Shown in pieces: positions 1,221 to 18,441 of a DNA stretch of 20,632 bases. Under the pieces are notes generated by a model. It searched no databases and was not told the DNA's origin. It saw only the letters and a program-made list of their open reading frames with translations. The position numbers were made by a program, and so were the translations under genes. The stretch covers positions 1-20,632 of IMG/VR virus record IMGVR_UViG_3300032516_000241; one strand, written 5' to 3'. Position 1 is the stretch's first letter, and each line of letters starts with the position of its first letter. This DNA is from a virus.

Positions 1221-2162
1221 TTAATCCTTAATAATTTCGAGTTTTAGAGCCGACAACAATGATAATGGAAAACATTCCGTCCAGCCCGTAAAATATTTAT
1301 TTTTACACACCTGTACTTTGTATCGCTCTTGATGAAATTTTTTCAATATTGTCTGTTCTTGTTGGAAAGCCTTATATAAAGGATAAGGTAATTCTGCTAC
1401 CACTTTAAACCGCACACCTGAAAATCTTTGTTTGATGTATTGTTTCCTCGTTATACCAATTTTACAAAACGCATCGTCAATAGTAATAAGATATAATTTT
1501 GCTGGTTGTGCTTTTACCTCTGGATGTTTTTCAAAATACTTATTTGTATAACCCTTTTGATGCTGTATTCCACAAGAGGGACAACCAACGCCGTTTGCAT
1601 GGTCTGCTGCTCGTTGAGAAAAATTTCCATGATCTTTGCATGTTATAATAACCTTTTTATTCATTCCCGCCGAAATGGTTTTTGAATAGTCATATTTACC
1701 CACGTGAAGTATTGACGAGCGGTGCACAAAATCTTTTGTTGATACTTTCCCTGTACCACCACACACTGGACATCCATATCCACCATGCACATGATCTGTT
1801 GGTGTTTGTGAGAAAATCCCATGAACAGGGCACGTAATGTTTACCTTTGTGTGTACATTTTTATACACAACATTTTCGTACGTATATTTTGATTTGTGTT
1901 TTTTATTGGATCGTTCAATGAATTGTTGCAACGTTAATGATTGTCGCTCATTACATAACGAACATCCGCGACCTTTCATATGATCCATTGCTCGCTGTTC
2001 AAACGCCCCATGGATATTACAAATAATTGTAATTTTTTTATCAGCACCGCAGAATTGTGTCTGCGAATAATTATAACGATCACCATGAACGGTTTGTGAT
2101 CTTTGTATAAATTGTTGGGTAGTTAGTTTTTTTGGCATGATTGTATTTATGGCTCTAGTCAT
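1221..2162 (-). CDS. Putative GIY-YIG-type homing endonuclease with three zinc-finger-like repeats
   Basis: The protein has 313 residues. Three tandem repeats of about 60 residues (near 13-70, 77-134 and 141-197) each read F..RS...H...Y.Y, then K..I.C..HG.F.Q....H..G.GC..C. Each supplies a Cys-His-Cys-Cys set (C48/H51/C67/C70, C111/H114/C131/C134, C175/H178/C194/C197) that probably binds zinc. Residues 222-305 resemble a divergent GIY-YIG nuclease of the T5orf172/Mug113 type: LYLI, then FCKIGIT with downstream arginines, a Glu in QQEQTIL, and a terminal F.GWTECF. The likely role is DNA recognition by the repeats and cutting by the C-terminal domain, as in mobile endonuclease genes of phages. 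The ATG at 2162 has CAGG eight bases upstream and overlaps the previous stop (ATGACTAG). A TTG at 2177 and an ATG at 2138 (MPKKL, exactly where the first repeat begins) are alternatives. The gene sits alone among structural genes, which fits a free-standing mobile gene. Confidence 0.75.
   Translation of the reverse strand: MTRAINTIMPKKLTTQQFIQRSQTVHGDRYNYSQTQFCGADKKITIICNIHGAFEQRAMDHMKGRGCSLCNERQSLTLQQFIERSNKKHKSKYTYENVVYKNVHTKVNITCPVHGIFSQTPTDHVHGGYGCPVCGGTGKVSTKDFVHRSSILHVGKYDYSKTISAGMNKKVIITCKDHGNFSQRAADHANGVGCPSCGIQHQKGYTNKYFEKHPEVKAQPAKLYLITIDDAFCKIGITRKQYIKQRFSGVRFKVVAELPYPLYKAFQQEQTILKKFHQERYKVQVCKNKYFTGWTECFPLSLLSALKLEIIKD
1225..1229 (-). promoter_or_regulatory. Shine-Dalgarno AAGGA for the gene starting at 1218
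   Basis: On the minus strand AAGGA is followed by six bases and then ATG. It overlaps the final codons of the endonuclease gene, so the downstream gene kept or acquired its ribosome site at the exact boundary. Confidence 0.75.
1294..1301 (-). promoter_or_regulatory. Weak late-promoter-like element AATAAATA inside the endonuclease gene
   Basis: Minus-strand AATAAATA lies 76 bases before the start codon at 1218. It matches the T4 late core TATAAATA in seven of eight positions, but is followed by T instead of the C that follows the other three elements here. It falls in coding sequence, so chance is a real possibility. Confidence 0.3.
2143..2151 (-). promoter_or_regulatory. Late-promoter-like element CATAAATAC
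   Basis: Minus-strand CATAAATAC begins four bases after the stop codon of the giant gene. It shares ATAAATAC exactly with the elements at 12837-12845 and 16791-16799. With T4-like spacing, transcription would begin near 2137, at or beyond the possible endonuclease start codons. It is therefore badly placed for that gene but well placed for a gene directly downstream before the endonuclease was inserted. Confidence 0.55.
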
Positions 2163-5100
2163 CGAACAAACCTGCAACTTCTAGAACACGAATACCGTGC
2201 AAGGCTACCCAAGATGTTTTGAAGATCTGTGGGTATTTAGATTTTACAGAGAAAGCATCAAGTAATGTATTAAACCAAATGTTATTGACATGAATGGTAC
2301 CAAATGTGTTATAAATTACATCCATTGATATAGCAATGTTTGCCGGCGTATCAAATGAGTATGTAGCAAAGAATGAATTGATGTCCAACGGATAAAAGTC
2401 ATTATTTGGATCTTCCAAATATGCAATTACCGTCTGTAATGACAGAGTACCATCTGTGAATGCCTGAGCTTCACCCAATCCATACTGAGTATCTGTTCCA
2501 TTCATTTCATCATATAGTGTGCGTTCCAAAGCTGGAACGCGAATGCTTGGATCTGCTAATTTGTAAAAAATCAAAGATTCAGTTAAGCGATTCCACAAAT
2601 AACGATCAATGTTTACTCCTTGCTCACGACGAATAACAAGCCATTCTTGATGTTTATCTTTCAAATTTACTGGACGGTAGCCATCATCCAAGTTATCACG
2701 CAACGTTAAATCACGTGTAAATCGCATTTCGTAACGATTATCTGTACGCACATAGTCGGCAGCTTTACGAATGATTGCTTGACGATAAAACACAGGAATT
2801 ACGGGGTATAGATCATAGATCCAAGGAACGCTATACACAGTGCCATACGTGATACCGTATCCGAAGCGGTCAGCTAGTGTTGGGTCGTCTTCTGGACGCT
2901 GTACAACAAGATATGGCGTAGGAATTACTGCAAGTTGTTGAGCAACTTGAATAAGAGGCAAAGCATCTTCACGATCTTCAATTTTGTTCAGTCGGTTTTC
3001 TACCCAGAAATAATACAAAGTCTTTTCAATTGTGTCAAATGTGACGACGCGTTGTGTATATTGAACCATTTCTTTCAATTGCACATTCGTTGTTCCATCA
3101 TCTGACGCATCTGGATCAAATGCTGCCTCTTCTGGTGTTACAACAGGAATAGGACGGACGACCATTATGATATCACGAAGAACATATTGTGCTGTGTTGG
3201 GAATTTGGTACAAACTATCTACTGTTAAATCTGCCTGAGATAGACGACCATTCAAATATGTATTAACAACATCACCAGGTGAAAAGAGTGAACTATCCAG
3301 CGTGAACAATGGTGGTACTGGCAATGTGTAGCCATCAATAATCGGAATAATTTGTTGAGATGAAACAGGCTTTGGAGTCCAGTTAATAGCTTTAAATGCC
3401 GGCACTACCGCCAACGTTCCAATACCACCTGTGCCATATTCAAATGCTGTTCCATTTGGTACGTCACTTAGTTTAATAATTGAGGCGGTGGTTCCCAACG
3501 TAACATAATATTTTGTTGATGATGCAAGAGTTGTCGTCGTCGTTAATGGTAGTTGGAGATCTAACGCTGTAATAGTGATTGTATTTTGAGCTGCTTCTAC
3601 TGTTGTTGCAATACCAACGAGAACGACCATTATCTTAGCTGCAAGTTGTGTGACTGTTGTTGCACCTGTAATTGTAATTGTGTAATTCACCGGTACACCA
3701 CCATTTACAGCGAATGTAAAATCATACAATCCATTAGCAAGATTTGTTAATGTTGCTGGCACAACTGCTGGTATATCAAAAAATGTAATTGTAGCAATGG
3801 CTGGGGATTCACTATAGACTGCCGGAACAACAGTAATTGTTATTATTGCAGTCATTGATGTCGCCAAACTATCAAACAAATCTGGATTCACACCTGTTGT
3901 TGGACGTGTAGGAGTAATTGTGCCATTGATTGTCAATAGGGCCTGATCACCAATACTCATTCCATTCGCACCCAACAATTCATCTGTACCAACATTAACA
4001 GTCGTAGCAATTGGTATACGTTCACGTTTGAATACCGTGTTTCTTGGGGTGCCTGTTATTTTGGTGTTCGATGGGATTGCAGTATTGTCTGCTTCATTTG
4101 ATGCAGTCGCAGTCCATTGTTCCGGCGTAAATTCACTTTCTACCCACTGGAATACACGAACTTGACCCCAATCAGCGAATCGACCCCAACTGTAAAGGCG
4201 ATCATTCAACTGTGGGGAAATGATATCATCGTAATACGGTAAGTATGCCAGTGTTGATGTATCCAACCATACTGTTTGAATTTCATGTTGATTCCAAGCT
4301 TGTTCTGATACATCATTTGGATTCAACGTATTTGTGTACAGAGCAGGATCACCCGCATTTTGAATATTAACATTGTGAATTGCAATTATAGAATGATTTC
4401 CGCGAGCTGGATCCCAATATGGAACATCGGTTAATACAGTTTCTGATACATAATCGATAATCTTTCCCGGACTATTTTGCGTCTTTGCTGGATTGATTGT
4501 AAACAGCATAATAATGTCACTAAAGCCAAACGTTGTAAAACGAACAACTTGCGAATTGATTCGCTCATACTCGCTTGGACCCGTACCAGGTTGCAAATAT
4601 GAAGTTGTGTAATTACGCAGATCGCCTGGAATTACTAGTTGTCGGTGTGTGATACGAACTGTATCTGAAAATACTGGTTGTTGCACATACACATCTGTAC
4701 CAACAGTTGTTATTTTTACATTAACATCTGTTGTCAATACCCACGATGTACCATTCCATACAAAAATATCACCAGTTGATTTTTGATACCAGAGATCAAC
4801 TGTTTCTTGACCAGATGTTGGAACAACATCTGAAGCATAAATTGTTGTTAATGATGTCACCTTACTATCGAGAAATAGAATGGAATTATGAAGCAATTCT
4901 TGTTGCTGTGGTGCATCAATCCAACGTGACTGATCAGCAAATGTAATTACATTAAAGCCCTGAGCTTTATCAGCAGCAACTACAGCTTTATCTGATGCTT
5001 CTGAGTCCGTTAAAAACTCTAAACGAATATCGTCAACCTGTCCATCTGATGCAAAAAGTTTGATCTCAGGATAAACTTTTGGTCGAACATCACCAAAGTC

Positions 5101-8100
5101 GGCAATCTTCCATGCCCAAAATTCATCTACTTTTGCATCAACAAATCGACGAGAATTAATATATGCTTTGATAGCATTTGTTGAACCTTTTGCTTGGATC
5201 ATGCCACGGTAAAAAATGAATTGAGTTTTTGCATTGGTGTTCAACAAATCCATGAACTTCATTTGTCCTTCACGATAACCTACCAGAGCACGTGAGTGGT
5301 GACCAACCTTTGTTTGCTCCTTTAGAGCATACGTATCGTAGTAGTTTTGTGAATCAACAGTCTGGCCTTCAATATTACGTAAAAATTTACCATCCAATAA
5401 GTAGTAACCACCCAATGTTGGACGCAAAGTGTAATCTTTCTTTTCATAAAAATCTAAACCAAAACGTTGAGCTTGCAGTCCTAGGAAAGAATCATACAAA
5501 ATCTGATTGCTCGTTGTGTAATCATTAAACAACACAACGTGTTGAATACCTTCAATGAACAAGTGTGCTCCACCCATGTGAATCAAATTGTATGGATCAA
5601 CTGTTGAAACCGATGGAGGAACAACATCATTTGCAATTCCTGTACGCATTGCCAAACGAGCAAGTGTATCTTCGCGGAAGATTAGAAGTTTATCAGCAGT
5701 CAGTGGTCGAGCATATTGGTCAAAAATTGTTTGCTGGACACGAATGTCCGCATAAGGACCTTGAATTACATTCGCCAACACACCTTGTGGTGTCGCAACC
5801 CACAAGTTATTGCGTGCCGGATTCATTTCAAATGATGGAAATGATTGTGGACGATTTTGTGGTGCTACAAACATGATGCCACTGCCATTTGATAGAATAT
5901 CAACAATTGATGCTGCTATCTGCCGTGTAGTTGATAATTGAAACACACCTGAAATAGTTGTTGATGGATAGTAATAATATGGTGTATTACCAATGAAGGG
6001 TTCTGGCAACAAACCTGTTGAAGTCATTACAATTGCCATTCCCGCAGACCATGTTGGAATTTGTCCTGTAAATTGTAATGTATTGTCTGTTTGATCCAGA
6101 ACAACAAATGGATACTTATCTGCTACGCTCAAACGTGTGCGACGTAGACGGAATGCCCAATCAATAAATCTTTCTTCTTCCAATTGCCAATCAACATTGC
6201 GGCCTGTTTCTGGATCAAGTTCTGAAAAATCACTCAAATTATATAACACACCAAGATCAGTTTGATAGGATTGATAACCATCAATAATGTTAAGCAATCG
6301 TTGAATGCCAGCGATAGAGTATGGTGGAGTAAAGTTGCGAACTTTGGTTTTGTCTACTGTGTAGTGATTCCAAATTTCTTTGGAAGGACCTGTACCACCC
6401 AGCACTTGGAATGAAGATGTTACTTGACCGACATTTAAATCACCAGTTCCTGGTGTTGTCCAAATAAACGGCAATCCAACAGTTGCATCGTTTGGACTAT
6501 CACTTACACGGAAGGTTCGATTCGTTAAACGAATAATATAAAGTGGTTGATACTGAACCAACGGAGCTGGTAATAATTGTGACGATGTAATAAACACAAG
6601 ATCACCAGTTTGCCATGGCAAAATATTGTTCGGCAAATCAATCATACCATCCACAACAGAACTTGGTAATGCTTCAAGTGTTGTAATTCTTGTTTTGTCT
6701 GTTGATGGATCGTAGATAGATGCAACAACTGTATATGTACCGTTATTTGCTGTTGAATCGATTACATCAAATACCGTATCGTGCGGGAAGTCTGTAACGT
6801 GATCGCCATTAACTTCTAACAAATTTGACACACTAAGTGCACCAGAGATTGCATACCGATAGAATGTCGCAGTATTCGTTGACACATCAACTACGAATGG
6901 ATAATTCATAACGTCGTAGTAGGAAATTGCACGTGGAATTGCTGCTAGTGTTTCCAGTTCCATTTTCCACTGTGCTTGATTGCTGTATGAAATTAATGCT
7001 GGTGGCATGTTCAAAATAACAACTTCGAATGCATCCGACCACATATCCTTAATAACACCCATGTTTGCTAAAATAACATTGTAATCTTGAGGACCAACAT
7101 CAAAATATTTGTTTGTTACTTGCAGGGTACTTGTGTCAATAATACCGGAGAATTGATATGTTAAGAGTGGATTCCATTGTGTCCATAGTACACGGAACTC
7201 TTTGTTAGTGTCATATCCAACATATCGATTGTAATTAACGTACCACTGATTCATTCCTCGAACGAGGAACTTAATGTTATTATCGTAAATATCACCATGA
7301 AATAATGCATCTTCGTGATTATATACTTGACAGAATGTAGGATCTAATTGCAAGTTATTAACACGAATAAAATCAATTCCCCATGCATAATGCATGAATC
7401 GAACTGGTTGCATTCTGAATGCAACCACCAATGGATCATATACGTGTTCACCAGAAACAAGCCATTGCCACTCTGTCGGACCACCATCTCCATATGCATA
7501 ATTTGCACCTGGTGCAACTATTTCTGTTGAGAGACTTGTAAAGAATGAACGAATTGTAGGAGAACTTGTGCTATAATATGGAGGAAGCACATCATCTGGT
7601 GCATAGTTACCTGCAATGACAACAGTACCAGTATTGACTGAGACGTAATTGTACACCAAAGTTATTTGGCCTGGTAATCCTGTACCTGGTACTCCTGTTG
7701 GAGTAGTTCCCACCGTTGGAATAATACCAACTCTAATATTTGCCCACATGTCGTGTATACCATCACGACGCCAGTGATATGTTTCTGTGGCATCAAGATA
7801 AAACGCATCCCACCAATCTGGTTTATCAATAAAGCCTTGGAGAGACCATGGCTCTAGATGAGGATATGGTGTTCCATACCACAACGTATAGAGTTGCTGC
7901 CACGATGCTGCAAGCCCAGGAGTAATCGAAAATGTTGGTGGTGTTGTAACTGAACTATACACATAATTCCACGTAAATGCATCTGATGGTGTGTAATTAA
8001 AATTTTCAAATGGAGCACGGATGCGACGACGCGCAATAAACGCAAAAAACTGCTCCTCATTGTATTGATCGTAAAATGCTTGCTCGCTTGGATTTGGTGT

Positions 8101-11100
8101 AAGGGAAGCATAATCAAAAGCAAATTCTGTGATCGGCTTTGGTGTAATTGCATACAGTTGATTCTCAACTGTGAGAAGAGTGTTTGCTAACAATAACCGC
8201 ATATCGACCAATTCCCATGCAAGTGAAATTTCTTGAACAGGGGCTGCTGCTATCCATGCTGATCCATTCCATGTGAACAGTTGATTGAGCATTGAGTTCC
8301 AATAAAAAGCACCTACGGGAACACCAGTTCCCGATGGAGCAACTGGTGTCACAGCGATAACATTGAATCGATACAATGCACGAGGATTAGATGTTTGATA
8401 CCAATATACACCGTTTCGAATCACACCAAATTGTGTAGAGAATGTTGTGTTTGGACAATTCGATGGAAGCACAAATGGTAGGACTGACATAAAGCACGGA
8501 GGTGGCGTCGTTGCAATCTTACCGATAGTACCATTTGTTACGCGTGTATCTGGTATAACACAAAGAATACGTGATGCAGAATCTTCTTCCGCTGCTGTAA
8601 AATTGATGCTTGATCGATGTCCATCATGATGTAGAATCTGATAAAGATTCATTTTTACATCAATATCCATCACTGGTTGGATGACAGGACCAAGAGCAAA
8701 CATTGGAACTGTTGAAATCCAATTGCGCATGCCTACATTTGTAGCAGCGTCGAATGCACTAGTATCAACATATACTTCAGCATAAAAATCGTTGGCTTCG
8801 TAGGCACTAATAACAGTTTCGGCTACAAATCCTGGCAAATCAGTGAGAGCATCAACAGAAAGATTAGACAGCATCGTTACTAGATTTCTGTTGAAAAGTT
8901 CTTTGATCGCCAACAGTAAATCAGCATATTGTTGTTGAGCAAATTCAATAACACCTGGTGGTGTTACGTTAATCAAATTAACTGCTGAAACTAATGTGTC
9001 ATAACTATCATTATGTTCTTTGATAGTTCCACCAAGTGAATAATTAAAATCTGCTTGTGAAAATCCTGAAATACCACCACCCGGAAAACTAAATGGATTT
9101 GGTTGAGCATCAACGATAGAACGGAAGTGTGTTACTAGTTCGGAATAACTAATATTAGTACGATTGTGGTGTTCTGGATTCAATCGCCACTGGTCCGGAA
9201 TTTCCCAATCGCCTCCTGGGTCGCCGACAGGAATTGGATTATTGTCACCATCAACCCATTGTGGAATATATGTACCACCTGTCCATGTGCTTGGTGGACC
9301 AGATGTATTATCTGTGTATTGTGGAACACTGCGCCAAACTGTTGTTAATGTTGGGTCTCCACCTTCAATTGCCACTGCTGGAGTTACCAGTGAATCATCT
9401 TGCTTTGGTAATGCTTGAACTACCCATGTTATACCATTAGATTTGTAAACAAGTTGCGTGGTAGGATCATACCAAATACTGTTTTCGATTGTTACAAGAT
9501 AAGTTGGTGGTGTTGCACCAACAAATGGTACATGTGTTTCAATTAGACCCGTACCTGAATCTTGAATTACAAATAGAGTTTGCCATGCTACACCATTCCA
9601 CTGTAAAAGAATTCCTGTACTTGGATTGTACCAATAGTCACTTGGCTGCATACGACCATCTAGCAGTCGGTAACCATAAATTTGTCCATTATCTTCCGCC
9701 AACATAAATTGAACAAAACCAAATTCTCGGCCACCATCGGACGTTACAATTCTTTTCTGAACAACACGGTTGACAGGAGCGCTCGGATCCTCACGATATG
9801 CAAATAGTGGTGATGCACTAATCAAGTTGCCAGAACAAACGTCATACATATCAAATAATGGATATTGATTAACCAAGGTCTTAACTTGATCTTTATGATC
9901 AAACGAATTACGTCCCAAATATGTTGGTTGAGTACCAACTAATACAGCTGCTAAGAACGCCGTTTCATCTTCAATAGTTCGCACAGGAACATACTGCATA
10001 CCCATATCACTAAGGGCTGCTGGGCCTACTTCAATACGAATAATATCGTACTGTGTAAGTGGTGTGGTGAATACAACGTTCGTTACATAATTAAACGATT
10101 GTGTTGTATAGATACTAGTTCCCACAGCTGTATAATCTGGAACACCAATTGCACTCAATTCAACGTAAGTGCCGTATTGTTGAATGTTATTTTTGTAAAC
10201 ACGAATCTGATCCTGTCCTGCAAGAGCAAATAGTGATCGGCCTGTTAAAATTGTTCCTGAAACAGTTGCTAGTGCAGGAATTGTTTCATTAACAATAATT
10301 TCTGTATTTGGACCAACGTCCAATGCAGACAGGACCGTATAAATTCCATTACCGGCGCCATTATTAGGAATGACAAAAGACATACCTGGTGTAAAAAATG
10401 CTGCATGATTTCCAAGCACAGACCACGTACCATTAACACCAACAATAAGTGGTGCAACAATGGTAAAAAATGTCTGATCGATGAAACGGAATGATGCATC
10501 TAACGCAATATTAGTTACACCCACTCCAGTAATTGTAGTTTCTTGAAAATATTCACCAACTACCATTGGACCAACTGATGGTACACCTGAGAATGAATAT
10601 GGATCACCTTGTTCAATAGCACGATTCAACATTGGATTTCCAACTTGTGATCCAGCAGCGGTAGACGTCATTGAATTTAAATCAAGGAACCAATGTACTT
10701 GATACCCACGCCATATATCACCAAGAGTTGTTATTTGTGGTTCAATACGAGCATGATTTACACCACCACCTTGAGGAGTTGTTGTAAAAAATGCATCGAT
10801 GCCAGCACCAAGCTCAACGAGCTTAACGATCGTAACAAGATAACCACCTTGAACTTCTAATGGATCAGATGGAGCACCTTCACGATAGATTGAATAATCT
10901 ACTGTGAAGCTATTGTTGATCATTGGAATATCAGAAACGACCAAAAACGTAAAGCCAGGAACAAATGTTGTAGCATAATTAATATCACGTGCTTCTGTTG
11001 CATTCTTATCAAACAAATACAAGTACCATGCTGTTCCAGGAGCACCTGGTTGTACGGCTAACCAGCCTTTAACTGGTTCCAATTCCAAGCGAGTTGGTTG

Positions 11101-12810
11101 ACTGGTGGTTGCAGAAAATGATCCAGTTGTGATTGGACGATATTTCCACGAATATGATAATTCTGTCCATTTGTTCATTTCTACACGTGAATCATATTCA
11201 AGAATAGGTGCTTGGGCTCTACGAACACCGGCAAATGAACTTACTCGTGATTTGTGAATCCACTTGTTTTGTTGTGTCCATTGATTACCAACTTGTAGTG
11301 TTGCAGCACAGCTTGCTGTCAAGTCCCATAAAATATCACCTTTGAGTTTATCACCAACAAAAACACTCCAATCCTGAATAACTAATATCCATGCTGTATT
11401 ACCTGGGTTGCGTTGATACAAACCATCAAGCGTTGTATCTAACCACAACGCAAGAGCTGTTGGGATACCATTAAATGCAATCCATGCACCATCTCCAACC
11501 CCAGCAGCAGATTCACCACTTGTTTGAAATGGTTGTGCATATGGACCTAATAAGAATGTCCAAGGTGGATCACCAGGTGCTTGATTATCATCCCACAAAG
11601 CTAAATCCCAACCAAAATCACCAGAACATACACAATTTGCATCTACACGTAATACATCATGCAACTCTTCTAAAGAGATAATACCAGATGCTACTGGTGT
11701 GCAAGGTACCCACGCAAAACCATTCCAACAATAAACATCAAGATCCATAGTACTTGTATCCACCCAATATCGACCAAGCACCGAAGGTGGTGGCATTGTT
11801 GGGCTACGAATAGCCATGGGAGAAATATCTGGATCAAAGATGATTGTTGTTTGAATTGGTATGGAGCCTTGCACACAAATGTTGACATCAATTGTACAAG
11901 TACCGTTACCAACAGCTGTTAATGGAATATCTTCATTAACGAGAATTGTTGTATTACCAGCGCCAAATGTTGTACTACTTACCGTATATGTACCATCTGC
12001 GCCACCCGTATTGTTGGTGATAGTAAATGGAATTCCTGGACCAAGAACAGACCGGAAATCACCTGCAATTACCCACAATCGGGCTGGTGCATCAACACCA
12101 ACCACAAATGCAGTTTGAGTTTCCAAACTGTAAGAGGAACTTTGAACAGTGAAGAAACGATTACGAATGTTAATATCCAATGTATCCTTAATCCACACAC
12201 GGAAGTTTTCAATAAACAACGTACTAAGTTGTCCATCAACTGTGACCGAATTATTTCCAACATCAATTTCAACGATTGGGAATGTTTCACCATACGTTTG
12301 AACTAGAGTGTCATATGCTGTAAGAACGTTTAATTCTTTTTCACAACGATTTTCAATTGTTAGATACTGTGGTAAATCTGTAGGGTTTACCGGTTCCCAG
12401 TAATAGTCTGTGAAATTAACAACCATGTCCAAATTAACTGGAGGTACCCAGTTAAAATGAATTGTGTTACCCCACTCTTGCATACGAAGAAAATCTACTC
12501 CCATTAGAGTTAATTGTTCTTGATATGCTTTGAATGACATAGCTGTTTCCACCGTACCAACTTTTGAATAAATTGTTGGTTGCAGTTGAAACGCTTGTAA
12601 TTGAGGAGTTGGTTCGGGGAGTTGACGATTTGTCAACGATGAGGGATTGGGCGTGCCGACATAGCCTGAGACGTGCGTTGTATCATCTTTTGTCAACATA
12701 CGATCAAAAGATGTGTTTAGAACGCTTTTGTTAGTTTCTGATCGTAGAACTTCTGGTAGAAGTTCAAACAGATTAGTATGTGGTTCAGGATGGTCGCTGT
12801 GGTTTGCCAC
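2155..12810 (-). CDS. Giant (3,551-residue) baseplate/tail structural protein at the gp7/gpI position
   Basis: One uninterrupted frame covers more than half the window. The start is GTG at 12810: AGAGGA lies seven bases upstream, no in-frame ATG exists nearby, and a promoter-like element is just beyond. T4 gp7, at the same place after gp6, has about 1,030 residues, so this is over three times longer. No signal peptide, membrane segment or catalytic motif is evident; the sequence is rich in T, V, N, P, Y and W, typical of beta-rich tail proteins. Visible internal units are: three modules of the F.pG..F.i..n.GtYtV type (near 237-311, 782-857, 1989-2064); six copies of a short Y/L-W...tg.ly.WNG.aWv motif (near 347, 456, 1057, 1111, 1500, 2672); and a flagellar-hook-like beta insertion (near 2984-3097). 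The last 400 residues are more charged and helical and may be the wedge-docking part. It overlaps the endonuclease start by eight bases. The structural role is well supported by context; equivalence to gp7 is positional inference. Confidence 0.82.
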   Translation of the reverse strand: MANHSDHPEPHTNLFELLPEVLRSETNKSVLNTSFDRMLTKDDTTHVSGYVGTPNPSSLTNRQLPEPTPQLQAFQLQPTIYSKVGTVETAMSFKAYQEQLTLMGVDFLRMQEWGNTIHFNWVPPVNLDMVVNFTDYYWEPVNPTDLPQYLTIENRCEKELNVLTAYDTLVQTYGETFPIVEIDVGNNSVTVDGQLSTLFIENFRVWIKDTLDINIRNRFFTVQSSSYSLETQTAFVVGVDAPARLWVIAGDFRSVLGPGIPFTITNNTGGADGTYTVSSTTFGAGNTTILVNEDIPLTAVGNGTCTIDVNICVQGSIPIQTTIIFDPDISPMAIRSPTMPPPSVLGRYWVDTSTMDLDVYCWNGFAWVPCTPVASGIISLEELHDVLRVDANCVCSGDFGWDLALWDDNQAPGDPPWTFLLGPYAQPFQTSGESAAGVGDGAWIAFNGIPTALALWLDTTLDGLYQRNPGNTAWILVIQDWSVFVGDKLKGDILWDLTASCAATLQVGNQWTQQNKWIHKSRVSSFAGVRRAQAPILEYDSRVEMNKWTELSYSWKYRPITTGSFSATTSQPTRLELEPVKGWLAVQPGAPGTAWYLYLFDKNATEARDINYATTFVPGFTFLVVSDIPMINNSFTVDYSIYREGAPSDPLEVQGGYLVTIVKLVELGAGIDAFFTTTPQGGGVNHARIEPQITTLGDIWRGYQVHWFLDLNSMTSTAAGSQVGNPMLNRAIEQGDPYSFSGVPSVGPMVVGEYFQETTITGVGVTNIALDASFRFIDQTFFTIVAPLIVGVNGTWSVLGNHAAFFTPGMSFVIPNNGAGNGIYTVLSALDVGPNTEIIVNETIPALATVSGTILTGRSLFALAGQDQIRVYKNNIQQYGTYVELSAIGVPDYTAVGTSIYTTQSFNYVTNVVFTTPLTQYDIIRIEVGPAALSDMGMQYVPVRTIEDETAFLAAVLVGTQPTYLGRNSFDHKDQVKTLVNQYPLFDMYDVCSGNLISASPLFAYREDPSAPVNRVVQKRIVTSDGGREFGFVQFMLAEDNGQIYGYRLLDGRMQPSDYWYNPSTGILLQWNGVAWQTLFVIQDSGTGLIETHVPFVGATPPTYLVTIENSIWYDPTTQLVYKSNGITWVVQALPKQDDSLVTPAVAIEGGDPTLTTVWRSVPQYTDNTSGPPSTWTGGTYIPQWVDGDNNPIPVGDPGGDWEIPDQWRLNPEHHNRTNISYSELVTHFRSIVDAQPNPFSFPGGGISGFSQADFNYSLGGTIKEHNDSYDTLVSAVNLINVTPPGVIEFAQQQYADLLLAIKELFNRNLVTMLSNLSVDALTDLPGFVAETVISAYEANDFYAEVYVDTSAFDAATNVGMRNWISTVPMFALGPVIQPVMDIDVKMNLYQILHHDGHRSSINFTAAEEDSASRILCVIPDTRVTNGTIGKIATTPPPCFMSVLPFVLPSNCPNTTFSTQFGVIRNGVYWYQTSNPRALYRFNVIAVTPVAPSGTGVPVGAFYWNSMLNQLFTWNGSAWIAAAPVQEISLAWELVDMRLLLANTLLTVENQLYAITPKPITEFAFDYASLTPNPSEQAFYDQYNEEQFFAFIARRRIRAPFENFNYTPSDAFTWNYVYSSVTTPPTFSITPGLAASWQQLYTLWYGTPYPHLEPWSLQGFIDKPDWWDAFYLDATETYHWRRDGIHDMWANIRVGIIPTVGTTPTGVPGTGLPGQITLVYNYVSVNTGTVVIAGNYAPDDVLPPYYSTSSPTIRSFFTSLSTEIVAPGANYAYGDGGPTEWQWLVSGEHVYDPLVVAFRMQPVRFMHYAWGIDFIRVNNLQLDPTFCQVYNHEDALFHGDIYDNNIKFLVRGMNQWYVNYNRYVGYDTNKEFRVLWTQWNPLLTYQFSGIIDTSTLQVTNKYFDVGPQDYNVILANMGVIKDMWSDAFEVVILNMPPALISYSNQAQWKMELETLAAIPRAISYYDVMNYPFVVDVSTNTATFYRYAISGALSVSNLLEVNGDHVTDFPHDTVFDVIDSTANNGTYTVVASIYDPSTDKTRITTLEALPSSVVDGMIDLPNNILPWQTGDLVFITSSQLLPAPLVQYQPLYIIRLTNRTFRVSDSPNDATVGLPFIWTTPGTGDLNVGQVTSSFQVLGGTGPSKEIWNHYTVDKTKVRNFTPPYSIAGIQRLLNIIDGYQSYQTDLGVLYNLSDFSELDPETGRNVDWQLEEERFIDWAFRLRRTRLSVADKYPFVVLDQTDNTLQFTGQIPTWSAGMAIVMTSTGLLPEPFIGNTPYYYYPSTTISGVFQLSTTRQIAASIVDILSNGSGIMFVAPQNRPQSFPSFEMNPARNNLWVATPQGVLANVIQGPYADIRVQQTIFDQYARPLTADKLLIFREDTLARLAMRTGIANDVVPPSVSTVDPYNLIHMGGAHLFIEGIQHVVLFNDYTTSNQILYDSFLGLQAQRFGLDFYEKKDYTLRPTLGGYYLLDGKFLRNIEGQTVDSQNYYDTYALKEQTKVGHHSRALVGYREGQMKFMDLLNTNAKTQFIFYRGMIQAKGSTNAIKAYINSRRFVDAKVDEFWAWKIADFGDVRPKVYPEIKLFASDGQVDDIRLEFLTDSEASDKAVVAADKAQGFNVITFADQSRWIDAPQQQELLHNSILFLDSKVTSLTTIYASDVVPTSGQETVDLWYQKSTGDIFVWNGTSWVLTTDVNVKITTVGTDVYVQQPVFSDTVRITHRQLVIPGDLRNYTTSYLQPGTGPSEYERINSQVVRFTTFGFSDIIMLFTINPAKTQNSPGKIIDYVSETVLTDVPYWDPARGNHSIIAIHNVNIQNAGDPALYTNTLNPNDVSEQAWNQHEIQTVWLDTSTLAYLPYYDDIISPQLNDRLYSWGRFADWGQVRVFQWVESEFTPEQWTATASNEADNTAIPSNTKITGTPRNTVFKRERIPIATTVNVGTDELLGANGMSIGDQALLTINGTITPTRPTTGVNPDLFDSLATSMTAIITITVVPAVYSESPAIATITFFDIPAVVPATLTNLANGLYDFTFAVNGGVPVNYTITITGATTVTQLAAKIMVVLVGIATTVEAAQNTITITALDLQLPLTTTTTLASSTKYYVTLGTTASIIKLSDVPNGTAFEYGTGGIGTLAVVPAFKAINWTPKPVSSQQIIPIIDGYTLPVPPLFTLDSSLFSPGDVVNTYLNGRLSQADLTVDSLYQIPNTAQYVLRDIIMVVRPIPVVTPEEAAFDPDASDDGTTNVQLKEMVQYTQRVVTFDTIEKTLYYFWVENRLNKIEDREDALPLIQVAQQLAVIPTPYLVVQRPEDDPTLADRFGYGITYGTVYSVPWIYDLYPVIPVFYRQAIIRKAADYVRTDNRYEMRFTRDLTLRDNLDDGYRPVNLKDKHQEWLVIRREQGVNIDRYLWNRLTESLIFYKLADPSIRVPALERTLYDEMNGTDTQYGLGEAQAFTDGTLSLQTVIAYLEDPNNDFYPLDINSFFATYSFDTPANIAISMDVIYNTFGTIHVNNIWFNTLLDAFSVKSKYPQIFKTSWVALHGIRVLEVAGLFDD
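6620..6845 (-). repeat. Beta module copy E in the giant gene
   Basis: Encodes roughly residues 1989-2064, with the landmarks VNGDHVTDF, VFDVID, NNGTYTVVAS and a final V.G.I. It is the most divergent of the five copies of the module found in this window. Confidence 0.5.
10240..10465 (-). repeat. Beta module copy D in the giant gene
   Basis: Encodes roughly residues 782-857, with W.VLGNHAAFFTPGMSFVI, GNGIYTVLSA and VNETIP..ATVSGTI. It is clearly similar to the copies in the gene at 1-1218. Confidence 0.65.
11880..12100 (-). repeat. Beta module copy C in the giant gene
   Basis: Encodes roughly residues 237-311, with LWVIAGDFRSVLGPGIPF, ADGTYTVSST and ILVNEDIP..AVGNGT. It shares the VNE.IP strand with copy D. 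Confidence 0.65.
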
Positions 12811-12817
12811 GTATGGT

Positions 12818-12823
12818 TCCTCT
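12818..12823 (-). promoter_or_regulatory. Shine-Dalgarno AGAGGA that fixes the GTG start of the giant gene
   Basis: Minus-strand AGAGGA, seven spacer bases, then GTG at 12810. It is the strongest ribosome site seen in the window and decides in favour of the GTG. Confidence 0.8.
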
Positions 12824-12836
12824 TGGTTTTGCCCAA

Positions 12837-12845
12837 GTATTTATC
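12837..12845 (-). promoter_or_regulatory. Late-promoter-like element GATAAATAC for the giant gene
   Basis: Minus-strand GATAAATAC lies in the 64-base gap between the gp6-like and giant genes. T4-like spacing would start transcription near 12831 and give a leader of about 20 bases that contains AGAGGA. This is the best placed of the elements. Confidence 0.65.
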
Positions 12846-12874
12846 AATAGAACCCACCAGATATTCCACTAGTT

Positions 12875-15800
12875 TTAACCGTTTAAGCGCAGATTGATTG
12901 AATTGTAAGATGGAACCAATACAATGTCATCAACGGTAATATCAGCATAGAAAATTTCATCTTCGGCGGCAAATACCTCAAACATATCACCAAATTGGTT
13001 TTGTTCAAATAATGGTACAATCACAACAGAACTAATATCCATCGGCAATGCAGCATGAATTGATGCAGCCATTTCTGTAAAGAAGAACGTTTCCCCAAAT
13101 TCCCATGTGGTGATGTCCAAGAAATTTCGAACAGTTGCAACAATTGTTGTTTTGATCTCATTATCGGTCAACAAGGCATCAGCTGATTTAATTACTTTAA
13201 GAGTTGCTTGTAGTTGCGGAGCGGCCTGACCACCAAACAACAGCTTAATCTTACCTGGCTGTAGAATAACTGTATCCGAAATCATTGCATTATCAAGCAA
13301 ATAATTGTATGAAGTACGCAAATCTAGTGGGGTTGGTACAGCTGGAAGACTTTGATTATTCTCCAATGCTTGTTTCAAGGACACAAAATAGCCTTTGGTA
13401 ATAACCATCATATCAATGATGTTACTTGCTGCAGGATCAACTAAGTGATATCGTGCCGTGAAGTGGAACCAAGCAAAATTAAAATTCTCACGACCATTAT
13501 TACGTTTCCAGAGGTTAGCTCCTGCGAGTTGATCCTCGATGTAAGAAGTGATTGTTTCATAACTAACTGCAGTAGGTACCCAAGGATCATCAACTGTCAA
13601 ACGTGAAAAGTACACATAATCTTTCACTATGACAACAACTTGCGTATTGCCGTTCATATTGAACACTTCAACTATTGAAACAATTTCATCTGGTAATAGT
13701 GACCCTTCTTGCCAATCAACTAACGGTGTCATTGTTGTCAGATCACCTGTCACTGTTACATCACCCTGACCAGTAATATAGAGAATTGGAATTGTGATGT
13801 CCGTCGTTGTATACGGAGCAGTTGAACTGCCCACTGTTGCAATATCAATCAATAGAAAGTTTGTTAATGAAGCAAACAATGGTGGAGCACCATCTACAAT
13901 GTTTATCGTTGATGCGGTTCCAAATGTGTTACTCATTACAACCAATGCACCGTCGATGATAGCAATAAATCCATTTCCTGTCAAGGCTGAATTAATATCA
14001 AACAACAAATTTGTATATGTATATGTTGCTGGGATTACCACGGTCACACTAACCGGATATGGTGTCCCATCAATTGTAATTGTTGTATTATATGTACCCG
14101 CTAAAGCAAATGGTTGATCACCGGCAGCAATTCCTGTTGAAAAAAGTATCGGTTGTTGGCCAGCAACCAGTGTAATAGTTGGATTGATAATCCCAAATAG
14201 CATTGGATTATCAGGAACTCGATCACCATTTGCATCAACAGAAACAACACTGATGCTGTTAATATCTCTCAAACCAATTTCTGGTCCACTATCAATTGTT
14301 TCTTGTGCAAGAACATTAAAATTCCAATTCTGTGACATTAAAGCAGCACGATTATTATCAACATTTGCTTGCAAAATAACGATCAAATCAAAATCTGAAT
14401 TCAATGTATCATAATCAACAATTGTTGCTCCATCATTTTGATTCCAAAATTGTGTTGTAACACTTTCAACAATTGTCCGACGGGCATCCCTTGATACATT
14501 GTAAATTGTTTCAAACACACTTAACTGCGTAACAGAAATCAATGGATATGTAATGAAGTCGATTGGATATCCCACACCTCCCAAACCATCCACAAAGAGT
14601 GGTGGTGTACCCGGTAATGTTGGCGCTGCACTTGTTTTCAAACTATACCATTCATTCGTAACTTTGTTGTAGTACATGTCAAATGCAGCTGGTGATGGTG
14701 GTGGGGCTAACGCCGCAACAATACGATCGATTTCATCTTGATTAAAAGTGCGACGAATATCACTTGAAGGTACACCATTGGTAATCAATTGCATATAAAT
14801 GTCTGTTGATGATAGCAGTGGTTCAATATAGGTTGAAATTAACGTGCTTGGTGACACTCCTGGTGTTGTTTCAGAGATTTGTTCATCTTGAAAATATAGG
14901 AGAGCATCATCACCAAAAATCTTCACGTTTTCATACGAACCACTTGGATCATGCCATGGAATATATTTGCTATCACCAGCAAATGTTCTATTGAAAGAAC
15001 GCAATTTTAAGATTGAACTATCCTGCAATGGGAAGACATTATAATCTTCCGCATTAACCATACGATCTTGAGTGTAGTATACAGCAGGTGCTGTCACACG
15101 AATATGTTCTAGTGTTTCTGCAGAAGAAGCATTCTGTAATGTGTTAATTAACGAAACGGTAAATGTAAATGTCTGAACACGACCTAAAGTATCAACGTAC
15201 GAAAAAGATAATGTTTGATTGACAACCGCTGAACGAGGAACCACAACATCATCGTCGATACTTGAGCGAACCCAGGCATCAAATGTTCCTTTAGGAATAT
15301 CTGAAAATTCACCATCTCCAAAAATCAATTGAATTTGGTTATTTGTTAGCGTTTCAACTTCATATTTGTTACGAATCGGATTTGTATTGAAAATAATATT
15401 CTGTGCATGTGCAAGATCAACTTGCTGCCAATCACCTGAACGAACGCCCGTTGCTCGATGATACGGAAGAAGTGGTGGTAGATCCAATGTTACTCCCGTG
15501 TTTGGATCAATGTTATTCAACCATACGTCTGTTTCGTTGATGTTCGTTGCATTGACAAGGTAGATTTGATTTGGTGTAATACCATCAAAGTTTGTTCGAA
15601 ATCGCTGCATTGTTCCTTGCTTGGTGAAACAGAAGAAGCCTGTTGTATCAGATTGGTCACCCAACCCATCGTTACCATAGCTAATCACAAAATTCGTATT
15701 ATTTTGTGGACGGCGCTCTACGAGTCCCTGTGTCAAACTACGTGCTAATGGAACTAATTCCATAGGTAGAGATTGTCCACCAACTGTCGTTGAGTATTGA

Positions 15801-16381
15801 AATACACCAAGTGGTAATGGAACAAGATTCCATTGATACAGTTCAAATACAACATCATCAATTTGAAAACGATCAGTTGGAACCACAGATCCAAATGGTT
15901 GAGCCAGAACACGATTCATTACCTGAATAAACTGTTGTTTCCAATCAACATTGTTTATATCATTCCAACGAATTGTGGTATTGGCTAAATTGATACCATT
16001 AGTATCAATTACTGGTTCTGTTGTGGCGATTGATTGAATTTTAACTAAGCCACGAGCTGGTAGCATTCGATCCGCTTTGTATGAAACTAACTTTGCTAGA
16101 CGAAGAATACTATCTCGACGTTGTGCTGTTGTGATGAAGTTTTCTTGGGCATTTACGTCGAGGCGATAAGCAATCTGTTCTGCCACATAAGCAAAAGATT
16201 CCACAACAGCAATAAATTCACTACTTTCAATGAAGTCGTTGAAAGTTTCTGGAAAATACAATTTAATGTATTCAAGAATACTTTGCTTGATTGAGTTGTA
16301 ATCAAATGCTGCAAAATTTACATTTTGAAATGCAGTATAGATACGTTCAAACGATTCTGCTCGGGAGACTAGACGACTCAT
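12875..16381 (-). CDS. Baseplate wedge protein, T4 gp6 / P2 gpJ family
   Basis: The protein has 1,168 residues. The N-terminus has the helical pattern of gp6/J proteins (IYTAFQNVNFAAFDYNSIKQ, later NAQENFITTAQRRDSILRLA). Near residues 353-365, LIFGDGEFSDIPKG matches the FGDG.f...P.G signature of the Baseplate_J family. The C-terminal 170 residues carry the usual closing pattern (IKLLFGG..., TDNEIKTTIVATVRNFLD, WEFGETFFFTEM). Gp6 dimers form the inner ring holding the wedges together, with gp25 and gp7 as partners; both neighbours fit. T4 gp6 has about 660 residues, so this protein has roughly 500 more. The extra part includes a beta insertion near residues 754-850 (IDGTPYPVSVTV, then LLFDINSAL and TFGTASTINIVDG), similar to flagellin/hook insertion domains. 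Its ATG overlaps the gp25-like stop by four bases, implying coupled translation, with AAGG nine bases upstream. Confidence 0.92.
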   Translation of the reverse strand: MSRLVSRAESFERIYTAFQNVNFAAFDYNSIKQSILEYIKLYFPETFNDFIESSEFIAVVESFAYVAEQIAYRLDVNAQENFITTAQRRDSILRLAKLVSYKADRMLPARGLVKIQSIATTEPVIDTNGINLANTTIRWNDINNVDWKQQFIQVMNRVLAQPFGSVVPTDRFQIDDVVFELYQWNLVPLPLGVFQYSTTVGGQSLPMELVPLARSLTQGLVERRPQNNTNFVISYGNDGLGDQSDTTGFFCFTKQGTMQRFRTNFDGITPNQIYLVNATNINETDVWLNNIDPNTGVTLDLPPLLPYHRATGVRSGDWQQVDLAHAQNIIFNTNPIRNKYEVETLTNNQIQLIFGDGEFSDIPKGTFDAWVRSSIDDDVVVPRSAVVNQTLSFSYVDTLGRVQTFTFTVSLINTLQNASSAETLEHIRVTAPAVYYTQDRMVNAEDYNVFPLQDSSILKLRSFNRTFAGDSKYIPWHDPSGSYENVKIFGDDALLYFQDEQISETTPGVSPSTLISTYIEPLLSSTDIYMQLITNGVPSSDIRRTFNQDEIDRIVAALAPPPSPAAFDMYYNKVTNEWYSLKTSAAPTLPGTPPLFVDGLGGVGYPIDFITYPLISVTQLSVFETIYNVSRDARRTIVESVTTQFWNQNDGATIVDYDTLNSDFDLIVILQANVDNNRAALMSQNWNFNVLAQETIDSGPEIGLRDINSISVVSVDANGDRVPDNPMLFGIINPTITLVAGQQPILFSTGIAAGDQPFALAGTYNTTITIDGTPYPVSVTVVIPATYTYTNLLFDINSALTGNGFIAIIDGALVVMSNTFGTASTINIVDGAPPLFASLTNFLLIDIATVGSSTAPYTTTDITIPILYITGQGDVTVTGDLTTMTPLVDWQEGSLLPDEIVSIVEVFNMNGNTQVVVIVKDYVYFSRLTVDDPWVPTAVSYETITSYIEDQLAGANLWKRNNGRENFNFAWFHFTARYHLVDPAASNIIDMMVITKGYFVSLKQALENNQSLPAVPTPLDLRTSYNYLLDNAMISDTVILQPGKIKLLFGGQAAPQLQATLKVIKSADALLTDNEIKTTIVATVRNFLDITTWEFGETFFFTEMAASIHAALPMDISSVVIVPLFEQNQFGDMFEVFAAEDEIFYADITVDDIVLVPSYNSINLRLNG

Positions 16382-16770
16382 TCTGATGCGCCTTCAAAAA
16401 GGATATTCAAGTTCAGATTATCAATAATATTCAATTCTATGTATAACATTCGTGCTGCAGCAACCACCCGATTACTATCATAATCGGGAATGACTGACAT
16501 CTGAAGAAGTTCAACTCTAGGGTCAAAATTGATAACTGTTTCTAAGTCTTCTCTCAAAATGCCAAGTGTGATCTCATCCAGTGGCTCGAATGCCAGATCT
16601 GGTATTCTTGTACCGTACGTAGGCATCATTACACGTTCACCTCGACGTGTAAAGATATGATTAAGGATATCCATTTTGACCAACTCAACGTCTGTCAATG
16701 AAAAGGTTTTATTCTTTTCATATTCAAACGAAGAATAGCCGCGATAGAGACCAAATGTTATTCCTGCCAT
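16378..16770 (-). CDS. Baseplate wedge protein, T4 gp25 / P2 gpW family
   Basis: The protein has 130 residues, close to T4 gp25. The family signature is plain: ILNHIFTRRGERVMMPTYG (residues 35-53), then IPDLAFEPLD, with an N-terminal helix ending in the conserved R.G.R...P.yG turn. Gp25 sits in the inner baseplate, binds the gp6-like protein and helps nucleate the sheath; the adjacent gp6-like gene fits this. Two ATGs stand in tandem (16773 and 16770). I chose the second because CGGAG lies six bases before it but only three before the first. The gene follows a promoter-like element and overlaps the start of the gp6-like gene (ATGA), so the two are probably co-transcribed and translationally coupled. 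Confidence 0.93.
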   Translation of the reverse strand: MAGITFGLYRGYSSFEYEKNKTFSLTDVELVKMDILNHIFTRRGERVMMPTYGTRIPDLAFEPLDEITLGILREDLETVINFDPRVELLQMSVIPDYDSNRVVAAARMLYIELNIIDNLNLNILFEGASE

Positions 16771-16776
16771 CATTTA

Positions 16777-16781
16777 CTCCG
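16777..16781 (-). promoter_or_regulatory. Shine-Dalgarno CGGAG before the tandem ATG ATG
   Basis: The spacing is three bases to the ATG at 16773 and six to the ATG at 16770, which favours the second start for the gp25-like protein. Confidence 0.65.
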
Positions 16782-16790
16782 ATAGTTCAT

Positions 16791-16799
16791 GTATTTATT
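16791..16799 (-). promoter_or_regulatory. Late-promoter-like element AATAAATAC before the gp25/gp6-like pair
   Basis: Minus-strand AATAAATAC lies in the 78-base gap after the spike gene. T4-like spacing would place the start near 16785, leaving a short leader that contains CGGAG. It shares ATAAATAC with the elements at 12837 and 2143. Confidence 0.62.
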
Positions 16800-16848
16800 C
16801 GGGGTCAGGCATGTTTTGTTTCGTCTAAGTTTCAAAACGAATCTGACA

Positions 16849-18441
16849 TTATCTTCGCCAAAATTTACCACGTGGAATCTCTACACCACGCTCATTTCTA
16901 TTTACCTGAGGACTGGTATAAAGAAATTCATCGTTATGTGTGAAATTGTTTGCCGTCATTACACGTGGCCAAGGTTCATGCTGTGGTACACGACTGGTCC
17001 AAAATGTTGGTAATTCACTTGGTGATGAAGCCCCTGCAGCAGTCGAAACGACTGAAGCATGAATTGCATTACAATCACTTGTTGATATAATACAATCTGA
17101 GTGGTACATTATAATTTCACTAGTATGCCAGTTTGGTGTTGAATATTTAATGGCATCATCACCACGAATACTTACATCAAATCCTTGAATCTCAAAGTTA
17201 GTTTGGGCTTTTGCTGTAAGGTTTGAACCAGCACTAATATCAAGATTGCTTCCAGCTTTTTCTTCAATGTTGGAAGCTGCTTCCAAATACATGCTTCCGC
17301 CAGCTTTAATATTCGTGTTTGAGTTGGAGTTCAAGTACGTATTTTGTGTGACATTAACACGCCAATTTTGATGGAACTTAAAATGAACATCCTGCAAAGC
17401 TTCTGCACGAATATCGGTGCCAGAATACATGTGAATTCCTTGTGCACCATACATGCGAATTGCTTGATCGCTTGTTAGATTAATATCTTGTGCCGCATGA
17501 ATATTAACTTTATTTGATGTATAGATGTCAATATTGCCCGCTTGATCCATTTCAATCCAATTATTACCTTTGGCTGTAGCTACATATATTCGTTCATTCG
17601 TATCATCCATAAGGATTTGATGTCCTCCCGTTGTACGAAAACGAGTGCGACAGTTTGTGGTACTATCATCCATTGATATAGCGTGGAATCCTGGAGTCGT
17701 CCAAGAATAAACTTCACTATCAAGATTGCCCTCATCATATAAGCCAGGATATGTTGGATCTTGACGACTAATTTCATAACCTTGAGTACTGAACCAACCG
17801 TCCCAAAATGCATTTTTATCATCAGGAACATTACTTGTTGTAAACTGCAATGCTGCCACATCAACAGCCGAAACCTGATAATCTGCTACACGAGTGCGCC
17901 ATTCATAATTTGGTTCACTCTTTGGAAATGCTTCTCGCATATTTGTATTGAGTGGTTCAATATATTTTTCATTTGATGTGTATGGACCAAATGGGCGACG
18001 ATCATCTGCCTGTTCCAATCCAGGATGATCTTCATACATGAATCGACCATGTGGCATAGTATGTGGTCGAAATTGATCGTATATTGCACCAAAAGAAATT
18101 CGGAAGTTTGGATCACCATCGATAAACATTACAACAACTTGTGAACCAATCTTCGGCCTCGCCCAAAAACCATATCCCACCGCTCCTTCAGAATGTTCAC
18201 CTGGTCCTGTACCACGAGTTCCTGCTTCGGTTTGACCAGCAAACGGTGATACATAAACAGCCCATGGAATATCTTCGATTTTACTAGACATTCCCTCACC
18301 CAACACAGCACATACAATACGGATGCGACCCATTTGTTGTGGATCATTTGTATCAACAACTGTTCCAATTGTTGCCACGCCTTGGAACGAAGGTTGTGGC
18401 TGTGCTTGTTGTTCATATGTGAGTAGTTGTTTGGTTTTCAT
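16849..18441 (-). CDS. Baseplate spike/needle protein, T4 gp5 / P2 gpV-like, without a lysozyme domain
   Basis: The protein has 530 residues. Residues about 20-120 form an OB-fold typical of gp5/VgrG N-termini: GTVVDTNDPQQMGRIRI, IPWA.YVSPFAG, RPKIGSQVVVMFIDGDPN, then FGAIYDQ. Residues 294-429 form 17 consecutive octads with alternating hydrophobics ending in small residues (for example NKVNIHAA, QGIHMYSG, SNLDISAG), the hallmark of the triple-stranded beta-helix needle of gp5C. About 100 residues follow the helix, including VPQHEPWPRV. T4 gp5 carries a lysozyme domain between OB fold and helix; here the region 130-290 has no lysozyme-like motif, and a murein-cutting domain is on the preceding hub gene instead. 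The spike would trimerise and pierce the outer membrane. ATG 18441 overlaps the upstream TGA by four bases, implying coupling of hub and spike synthesis. Confidence 0.9.
   Translation of the reverse strand: MKTKQLLTYEQQAQPQPSFQGVATIGTVVDTNDPQQMGRIRIVCAVLGEGMSSKIEDIPWAVYVSPFAGQTEAGTRGTGPGEHSEGAVGYGFWARPKIGSQVVVMFIDGDPNFRISFGAIYDQFRPHTMPHGRFMYEDHPGLEQADDRRPFGPYTSNEKYIEPLNTNMREAFPKSEPNYEWRTRVADYQVSAVDVAALQFTTSNVPDDKNAFWDGWFSTQGYEISRQDPTYPGLYDEGNLDSEVYSWTTPGFHAISMDDSTTNCRTRFRTTGGHQILMDDTNERIYVATAKGNNWIEMDQAGNIDIYTSNKVNIHAAQDINLTSDQAIRMYGAQGIHMYSGTDIRAEALQDVHFKFHQNWRVNVTQNTYLNSNSNTNIKAGGSMYLEAASNIEEKAGSNLDISAGSNLTAKAQTNFEIQGFDVSIRGDDAIKYSTPNWHTSEIIMYHSDCIISTSDCNAIHASVVSTAAGASSPSELPTFWTSRVPQHEPWPRVMTANNFTHNDEFLYTSPQVNRNERGVEIPRGKFWRR
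17155..17562 (-). repeat. 17 octapeptide-coding repeats (beta-helix needle)
   Basis: Residues 294-429 of the spike protein can be cut into 17 eight-residue units in constant register, with hydrophobic residues at positions 3 and 5 and a small or polar end. The register is seen in the translation; the triple-helix fold is known for gp5C and VgrG and is inferred here. Confidence 0.8.

Follow-up and report, generated by a model that had tools for sequence, protein, structure and literature searches.

What is the role of a 3,551-residue protein encoded directly downstream of gp25-like and gp6-like baseplate genes, that is, in the gp7/gpI position of a phage baseplate cluster? We addressed this question for a 20,632-bp virus fragment (the entire stretch analyzed here, hereinafter the window). 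The initial annotation interpreted the giant product (hereinafter the giant) as a gp7-type wedge protein that has absorbed extra domains.

The giant gene and its neighborhood

The giant structural gene (P0001; 2155..12810, minus strand) starts with a GTG at 12810, its stop codon ends at 2155, and it consists of 3,551 codons; the mass computed from the translation is 395 kDa (395.5 kDa) and the pI is 4.6. The unbroken frame was originally reported with the exact length and coordinates, and the coding strand is the minus strand; the plus strand across 2155-12810 is full of stops. Given that the window comes from a metagenome fragment, an assembly artefact or a chance open reading frame has to be considered, but we regard this explanation as already refuted. 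With the GC content of this DNA, a run of 3,551 codons would stay open by chance with a probability of ~1e-103, and the differences between P0001 and a homologue from L012 that is 74% identical at the amino acid level are distributed as 0.22/0.14/0.55 among codon positions 1/2/3, which implies purifying selection. Furthermore, an independent contig (L010) is 99.97% identical to window positions 5138-20632, a region that encodes residues 1-2557 of the giant, and homologues of full length exist. The giant ORF is genuine.

The ribosome site and the promoter-like element noted earlier are both readily located upstream of the GTG start. A ribosome-binding-site-like AGAGGA (12818..12823, minus strand), identified from the sequence, lies 8-13 nt before the start codon and is preceded by GATAAATA (12838..12845, minus strand), 28-35 nt before the start, which is the sole [TG]ATAAATA in the window. 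The latter box resembles the T4 late promoter, for which the consensus TATAAATA is quoted in PMC5587285; in a comparison of 16 loci, nearly every relative had an ATAAATA/TAAATA box ~25-45 nt before its giant gene.

All genes of the window are on the minus strand and follow each other, in the order of transcription, as P0007, P0006, P0005, P0004, the giant, P0003 and P0002. P0007 (18438..20630) is a tail hub/lysozyme-like structural protein that is truncated by the window edge and consists of 974 aa in L010; P0006 (16849..18441) is a gp5/gpV-like spike protein, with matches to PF04717 (Phage_base_V) and PF10106 (DUF2345). The gp25-like and gp6-like genes that had been placed directly before the giant were identified as such by profile searches. 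P0005 (16378..16773) matches PF04965 (GPW_gp25; E=1.7e-9), and P0004 (12875..16381; 1,168 aa) is, judging by its matches to phrog_10646 (E=3.5e-262) and phrog_219 (E=1.6e-21) and a weak match to BplA among PDB sequences (E 0.0012), a gp6-like baseplate wedge protein; there is also a match to the TIGR02243 baseplate assembly protein, below the cutoff. A further gp6-family profile search included T4 gp6 itself and so is not independent support for this assignment. The gene order, gp25-gp6-giant, is that of the gp7/gpI position, as originally proposed, and a homology comparison between the giant and gp6 found none. Behind the giant come a homing-endonuclease-like gene, P0003 (1221..2177; phrog_681, E=5e-58), and P0002 (1..1218), a continuation gene that is cut by the end of the window and starts with a motif, VKPYHTKI, found inside the giants of other lineages.

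A widespread family of giant proteins downstream of gp6

The giant matches phrog_10938, annotated 'virion structural protein', with E=8.1e-65, and this profile also matches 11/11 and 14/14 members in two sets of the family, with co-linear conserved segments. The giant is a new addition to this family, which is widespread but has no assigned function. A tblastn search detected homologues in XacN1, RAS14/CM1, Asteriusvirus, Atu_ph07, Serratia BF, PA5oct and SCTP-2, and the phages with a homologue further include RaK2, 121Q-like phages and CBB. In 7 examined phage records, the matched genes encode 3,138-4,449 aa, and the giant follows gp6 in all six of those records in which the upstream gene was resolved; the slot after gp6 is likewise filled by CBB_236 (3,340 aa) in CBB and by ORF070w in RaK2.

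A profile scan of IMG/VR yielded at least 532 confirmed stretches of the family. In 129 of 140 sampled loci, no more than 250 nt separate the gp6 stop from the giant (median gap, 31 nt), the 11 exceptions being T4 itself, one locus with no giant in reach, and others in which the giant is somewhat farther off. The 59 distinct complete homologues range from 1,879 to 4,457 aa with a median of 3,239 aa, so the size of the giant, which had appeared unusual against gp7 proteins of ~1,000 residues, is ordinary for the family; cyanophages, too, encode proteins of ~3,500 aa in this slot.

Predicted structure and composite architecture

We obtained AlphaFold2 (AF2) models, from alignments without rows from annotated phage records, for residues 5-1180 (mean pLDDT 75) and 1590-2760 (mean pLDDT 84.6), together about two thirds of the protein. 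Both models show a beta-rich multidomain chain. The segment-wise structure prediction suggested earlier thus produced the beta multidomain chain, but a Foldseek search of the PDB with residues 5-1180 and 1590-2760 gave no meaningful match and no gp7, gpI or TssG chain; PDB searches with sequence profiles of both folded segments likewise retrieved nothing. When the model of residues 1590-2760 was compared with the BFVD, members of its own family (Atu_ph07 and others) came first, followed, at E 2e-10 and TM 0.08, by a protein of Synechococcus phage Bellamy labeled 'Baseplate wedge initiator', a designation used for T4 gp7 in many records; a 'Baseplate wedge subunit' was also matched (E 4e-8). 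The TM values of the matches outside the family are about 0.08, and tail fibres are among them.

Alignments and the AF2 model delineate a conserved N-terminal region (residues 14-150; 12361..12771, minus strand) with the motifs LPE...F...L..GYIG and F.WxPPIDxDKxxNFxDYYW. The most conserved part of the protein, as seen in the conservation profile, is a tryptophan-rich core (residues 1601-1900; 7111..8010, minus strand) modeled with a pLDDT of ~85-94. The repeated beta modules mentioned in the initial annotation were recovered as well. A module HMM identified two copies of a ~75-aa beta module, at residues 235-308 (11887..12108, minus strand) and 788-857 (10240..10449, minus strand), and two further copies in P0002. 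The same module is also present in a gp6 homologue that has grown to 2,005 aa (L047, 7535-13552; also L059 and L099). By sequence comparison, the ~75-aa module moves between wedge genes. In addition, the giant contains five hairpins ending in [WS]NGxxW, compared with 0.05 matches expected after shuffling, and CBM_5_12 matches were obtained in three orthologues; together, these features hint at glycan binding.

In several relatives, the giant is divided between two genes. A natural split zone is located at about residues 2660-2790 (4441..4833, minus strand), the breaks falling in every case between residues ~2,600 and ~2,790. Here, two ORFs are found in L023/L029, a single phage recovered from two samples, in L048 and L049, which come from different samples and have an identical layout, and in L051 and L163, in which the overlap of the two ORFs makes a frameshift error possible. 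The second ORF of the split giant in L023 has its own GATAAATA box. A different split is seen in L066 (9986-17820), where the first ORF, of 815 aa, corresponds to window residues 13-141 and the second matches from residue 1106. The VKPYHTKI motif is internal to the giants of RaK2-like phages, PA5oct, SCTP-2 and marine lineages, and starts a separate downstream gene in the clade of the window. A P0003-like endonuclease occupies the giant/P0002 junction of the window, as it does in L009, L011, L012, L013, L017 and L036; related endonuclease genes lie before the giant, near or upstream of gp6, in L051, L024, L044 and L015. The giant is a composite protein. The proposal that extra domains were absorbed fits these observations because beta modules recur within the giant and other lineages encode some of its parts separately. 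The further suggestion that the giant replaces several separate proteins is not supported here, given that Synechococcus phage ACG-2014e keeps gp8 next to its giant and PA5oct has a gene annotated as gp10-like.

Presence in virions

For three orthologues, there are mass spectrometry data on virions, in agreement with the original prediction. The PA5oct gp355 record carries an ESI-MS/MS note; CBB_236 was detected with 21 peptides and 7.72% coverage (PMC5259590), and phAPEC6 gp245 (381.88 kDa) with 17 peptides and 7.6% (PMC7247149). The last protein, which is listed directly after the 131-kDa gp6-like baseplate wedge protein gp244 (PMC7247149), is apparently an orthologue of the giant, by size and adjacency. 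The peptide density of the giant relative to gp6 is 0.28 in phAPEC6 (per kDa) and 0.56 in CBB (per residue), a crude hint of fewer giant copies. The literature searched assigned no function to the giant orthologues.

These data bear on two other possible identities of the giant, a tape measure and a protein absent from virions, such as a packaging protein, as its great length and the PHROG category of phrog_10938, 'head and packaging', could suggest. This category looks wrong, as does the label of phrog_3465 ('head closure Hc2'), which contains the Det7 gp7-slot protein encoded right after gp6. A tape measure would be a long alpha-helical or coiled chain, whereas the AF2 models contain few long helices and are mainly beta by DSSP; in Atu_ph07, a separate protein, gp701, is annotated as the tape measure (PMC6102473); and the giant gene sits in the wedge cluster. 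Both readings fail because orthologues were detected in virions by mass spectrometry. We therefore consider it highly improbable that the giant belongs to either of these two classes, which had been named as the alternatives to a wedge protein.

Is the giant a homologue of gp7 and gpI?

In proteins of the gp7 type, a helix-turn-helix joins two gp6 molecules in the core bundle and is followed by the trifurcation region (PMC10457771, PMC6300606). At the place of the trifurcation, the motif K/RG(T/I)xx(A/S) is common to T4 gp7, P2 gpI, the product of Det7 gene 204 and the giant of the cyanophage. The window giant contains a candidate counterpart, a KG[TS]xx[AS] helix-turn-helix at residues 2527-2564 (5119..5232, minus strand), proposed on the strength of conservation and register. 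The lysine is conserved in 97/98 and the glycine in 98/98 sequences, AF2 places helices at 2527-2539 and 2543-2551, and the KG is in register with KG738-739 of T4 gp7, the cyanophage giant and P2 gpI. Sliding segments over the motif rank at the top of 172 against the KG profiles of the cyanophage giant and T4 gp7, and the motif is the second-best site in the giant against P2 gpI. The E-values of these matches are 0.002-0.04 and reversed-profile controls score as high, so it is only register and conservation that argue for the match. A predicted helical hairpin at residues 2165-2230 (6121..6318, minus strand; AF2 helices 2169-2186 and 2208-2226) is a candidate core-bundle element, being the top-ranked but weak hhalign match to the N-terminal helices of the Det7 gp7-slot protein.

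Pfam and PHROG scans of the giant gave no significant match to gp7 or Tail_P2_I, and the hhalign comparison of whole profiles against gp7 and Tail_P2_I yielded nothing significant, with or without 16 homologues that were misaligned by hmmalign and dropped from the family profile; the P2 and Mu relatives are too alike to yield deep profiles. A link to T4 gp7 via phrog_2885 was considered and rejected as evidence: the profile matched one distant member and, because it also matches shared beta-module families, the hit is likely a module match. We also rejected the N-terminal LP...F segment as the gp7 helix-turn-helix, given that profile ranking produced no match to the N-termini of gp7-slot proteins. 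With weak E-values, reversed profiles that score equally well and an empty whole-profile comparison, homology of the giant to T4 gp7 and P2 gpI is only suggestive, and we do not file the giant as a gp7 member. Of the original gp7-type assignment, the genomic slot and the presence of orthologues in virions stand, whereas a gp7 match was found neither with Pfam, PHROG and hhalign nor with Foldseek against the PDB.

The T4-like cyanophage ACG-2014e (a Synechococcus phage) shows the order gp25-gp6-giant-gp8 (L200, NC_026928, 19773-30260), and its giant, gp083, of 3,495 aa, belongs to phrog_4406/phrog_2885. Residues 177-393 of this protein weakly match T4 gp7 702-900 (E 0.0012), and a gp7-like KGT core lies near its N-terminus (residues ~12-215). 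No sequence or profile homology between this protein and the window giant was found. The proteins in this slot comprise 242 aa in XM1 (gp17), 284 in Det7, 1,032 in T4 and 3,495 in the cyanophage; large proteins in the gp7 slot may have several independent origins, or may have diverged past detection.

A putative enlarged wedge scaffold

The interpretation that we favor, with a probability of roughly 0.6, is that the giant is a scaffold of the baseplate wedge, equivalent in function to T4 gp7 and P2 gpI and enlarged by inserted or fused beta domains; most likely, then, the giant works like gp7. A competing and somewhat unlikely, albeit plausible, explanation is that this virion protein lies at the periphery of the baseplate or on the surface of the tail, as a fibre or whisker anchor or an adhesion platform, and merely occupies the gp7 slot, the gp6-binding gp7 equivalent being another protein or lost. 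Such a role would be compatible with the lack of a significant gp7 match in the profile and PDB fold searches, and the five [WS]NGxxW hairpins, which resemble CBM5/12, the CBM_5_12 matches in orthologues and the 'chitin-binding type-3' annotation of one of these all fit adhesion; moreover, RaK2-like phages bear elaborate fibres and whiskers (PMC5259590, PMC7247149). However, a peripheral protein that is in the slot by happenstance does not account well for the strict position behind gp6 or for the nearly invariant KG helix motif in register with gp7 and gpI, and the different giant of the cyanophage, in the same gp6-gp8 slot, weakly matches T4 gp7.

If the giant is indeed a wedge scaffold, one giant chain per wedge would associate with the gp6 dimer and reach outward to the periphery, its enlargement to 395 kDa having occurred through inserted and fused beta domains. 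The protein would be located in the baseplate in six copies, with the helical segments ~2165-2230 and 2527-2564 forming the gp6-binding core (core bundle plus trifurcation). The outer wedge would consist of the other domains, whose surfaces would dock fibres or bind glycans weakly, and which might pass receptor contact to the wedge ring and the sheath.

More tentatively, and we consider this unlikely on balance, gp7 could be the growth point of the contractile baseplate. Its core would then have been extended and fused with neighboring peripheral wedge genes into one ~400-kDa chain, and this would have happened independently in jumbo phages and in cyanophages. In six copies, such a chain would amount to ~2.4 MDa per baseplate, and a single polypeptide would represent what T4 builds from several separate proteins, one that can be cut back to individual genes at fixed borders between domains, near residue 2,700 and where P0002 begins.

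In many jumbo phages, the largest structural protein has no annotation beyond 'virion structural protein'; the wedge placement, the candidate gp6-binding core and the mapped split points make its role testable in the cultured phages PA5oct, CBB and RaK2. The wedge placement also suggests that a baseplate can gain complexity through fusion into a single chain rather than by added subunits.

Relation to known systems

Among the closest known systems are the wedge proteins T4 gp7, P2 gpI and TssG of the T6SS, which pair with two copies of gp6, gpJ and TssF, respectively. The giant is like them in that its gene lies directly downstream of a gp6/gpJ/TssF homologue, in that its orthologues are virion proteins and, putatively, in the KG[TS]xx[AS] helix-turn-helix in register. 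Unlike these proteins, it is 3-20 times larger, lacks a significant sequence, profile or PDB-fold match to them, and has its helical hairpin and KG motif ~300 residues apart, deep in the chain. Within phrog_10938, RaK2 ORF070w, CBB_236, PA5oct gp355 and Atu_ph07 gp180, along with XacN1 ORF325, SCTP-2 gp140 and phAPEC6 gp245, are homologous over most of their length. Compared with these isolates, the window giant shows 18-32% identity, the same post-gp6 slot and a similar size (3,138-4,449 aa in the isolates), but its C-terminal continuation (P0002) is separate, behind a homing endonuclease, and it carries another set of decorative modules and a larger number of [WS]NGxxW hairpins. ACG-2014e gp083 shares with the window giant the slot, the size class and the multidomain beta modules, yet is unrelated to it in sequence and profile and has its gp7-like core at the N-terminus. 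At the other extreme is gp17 of Vibrio phage XM1, a solved wedge protein of 242 aa in which loops inserted in the core domain carry spikes (PMC10457771). Likened to the giant by this description rather than by sequence, XM1 gp17 has the same slot and the same proposed role and, conceivably, represents the minimal version of what the giant elaborates.
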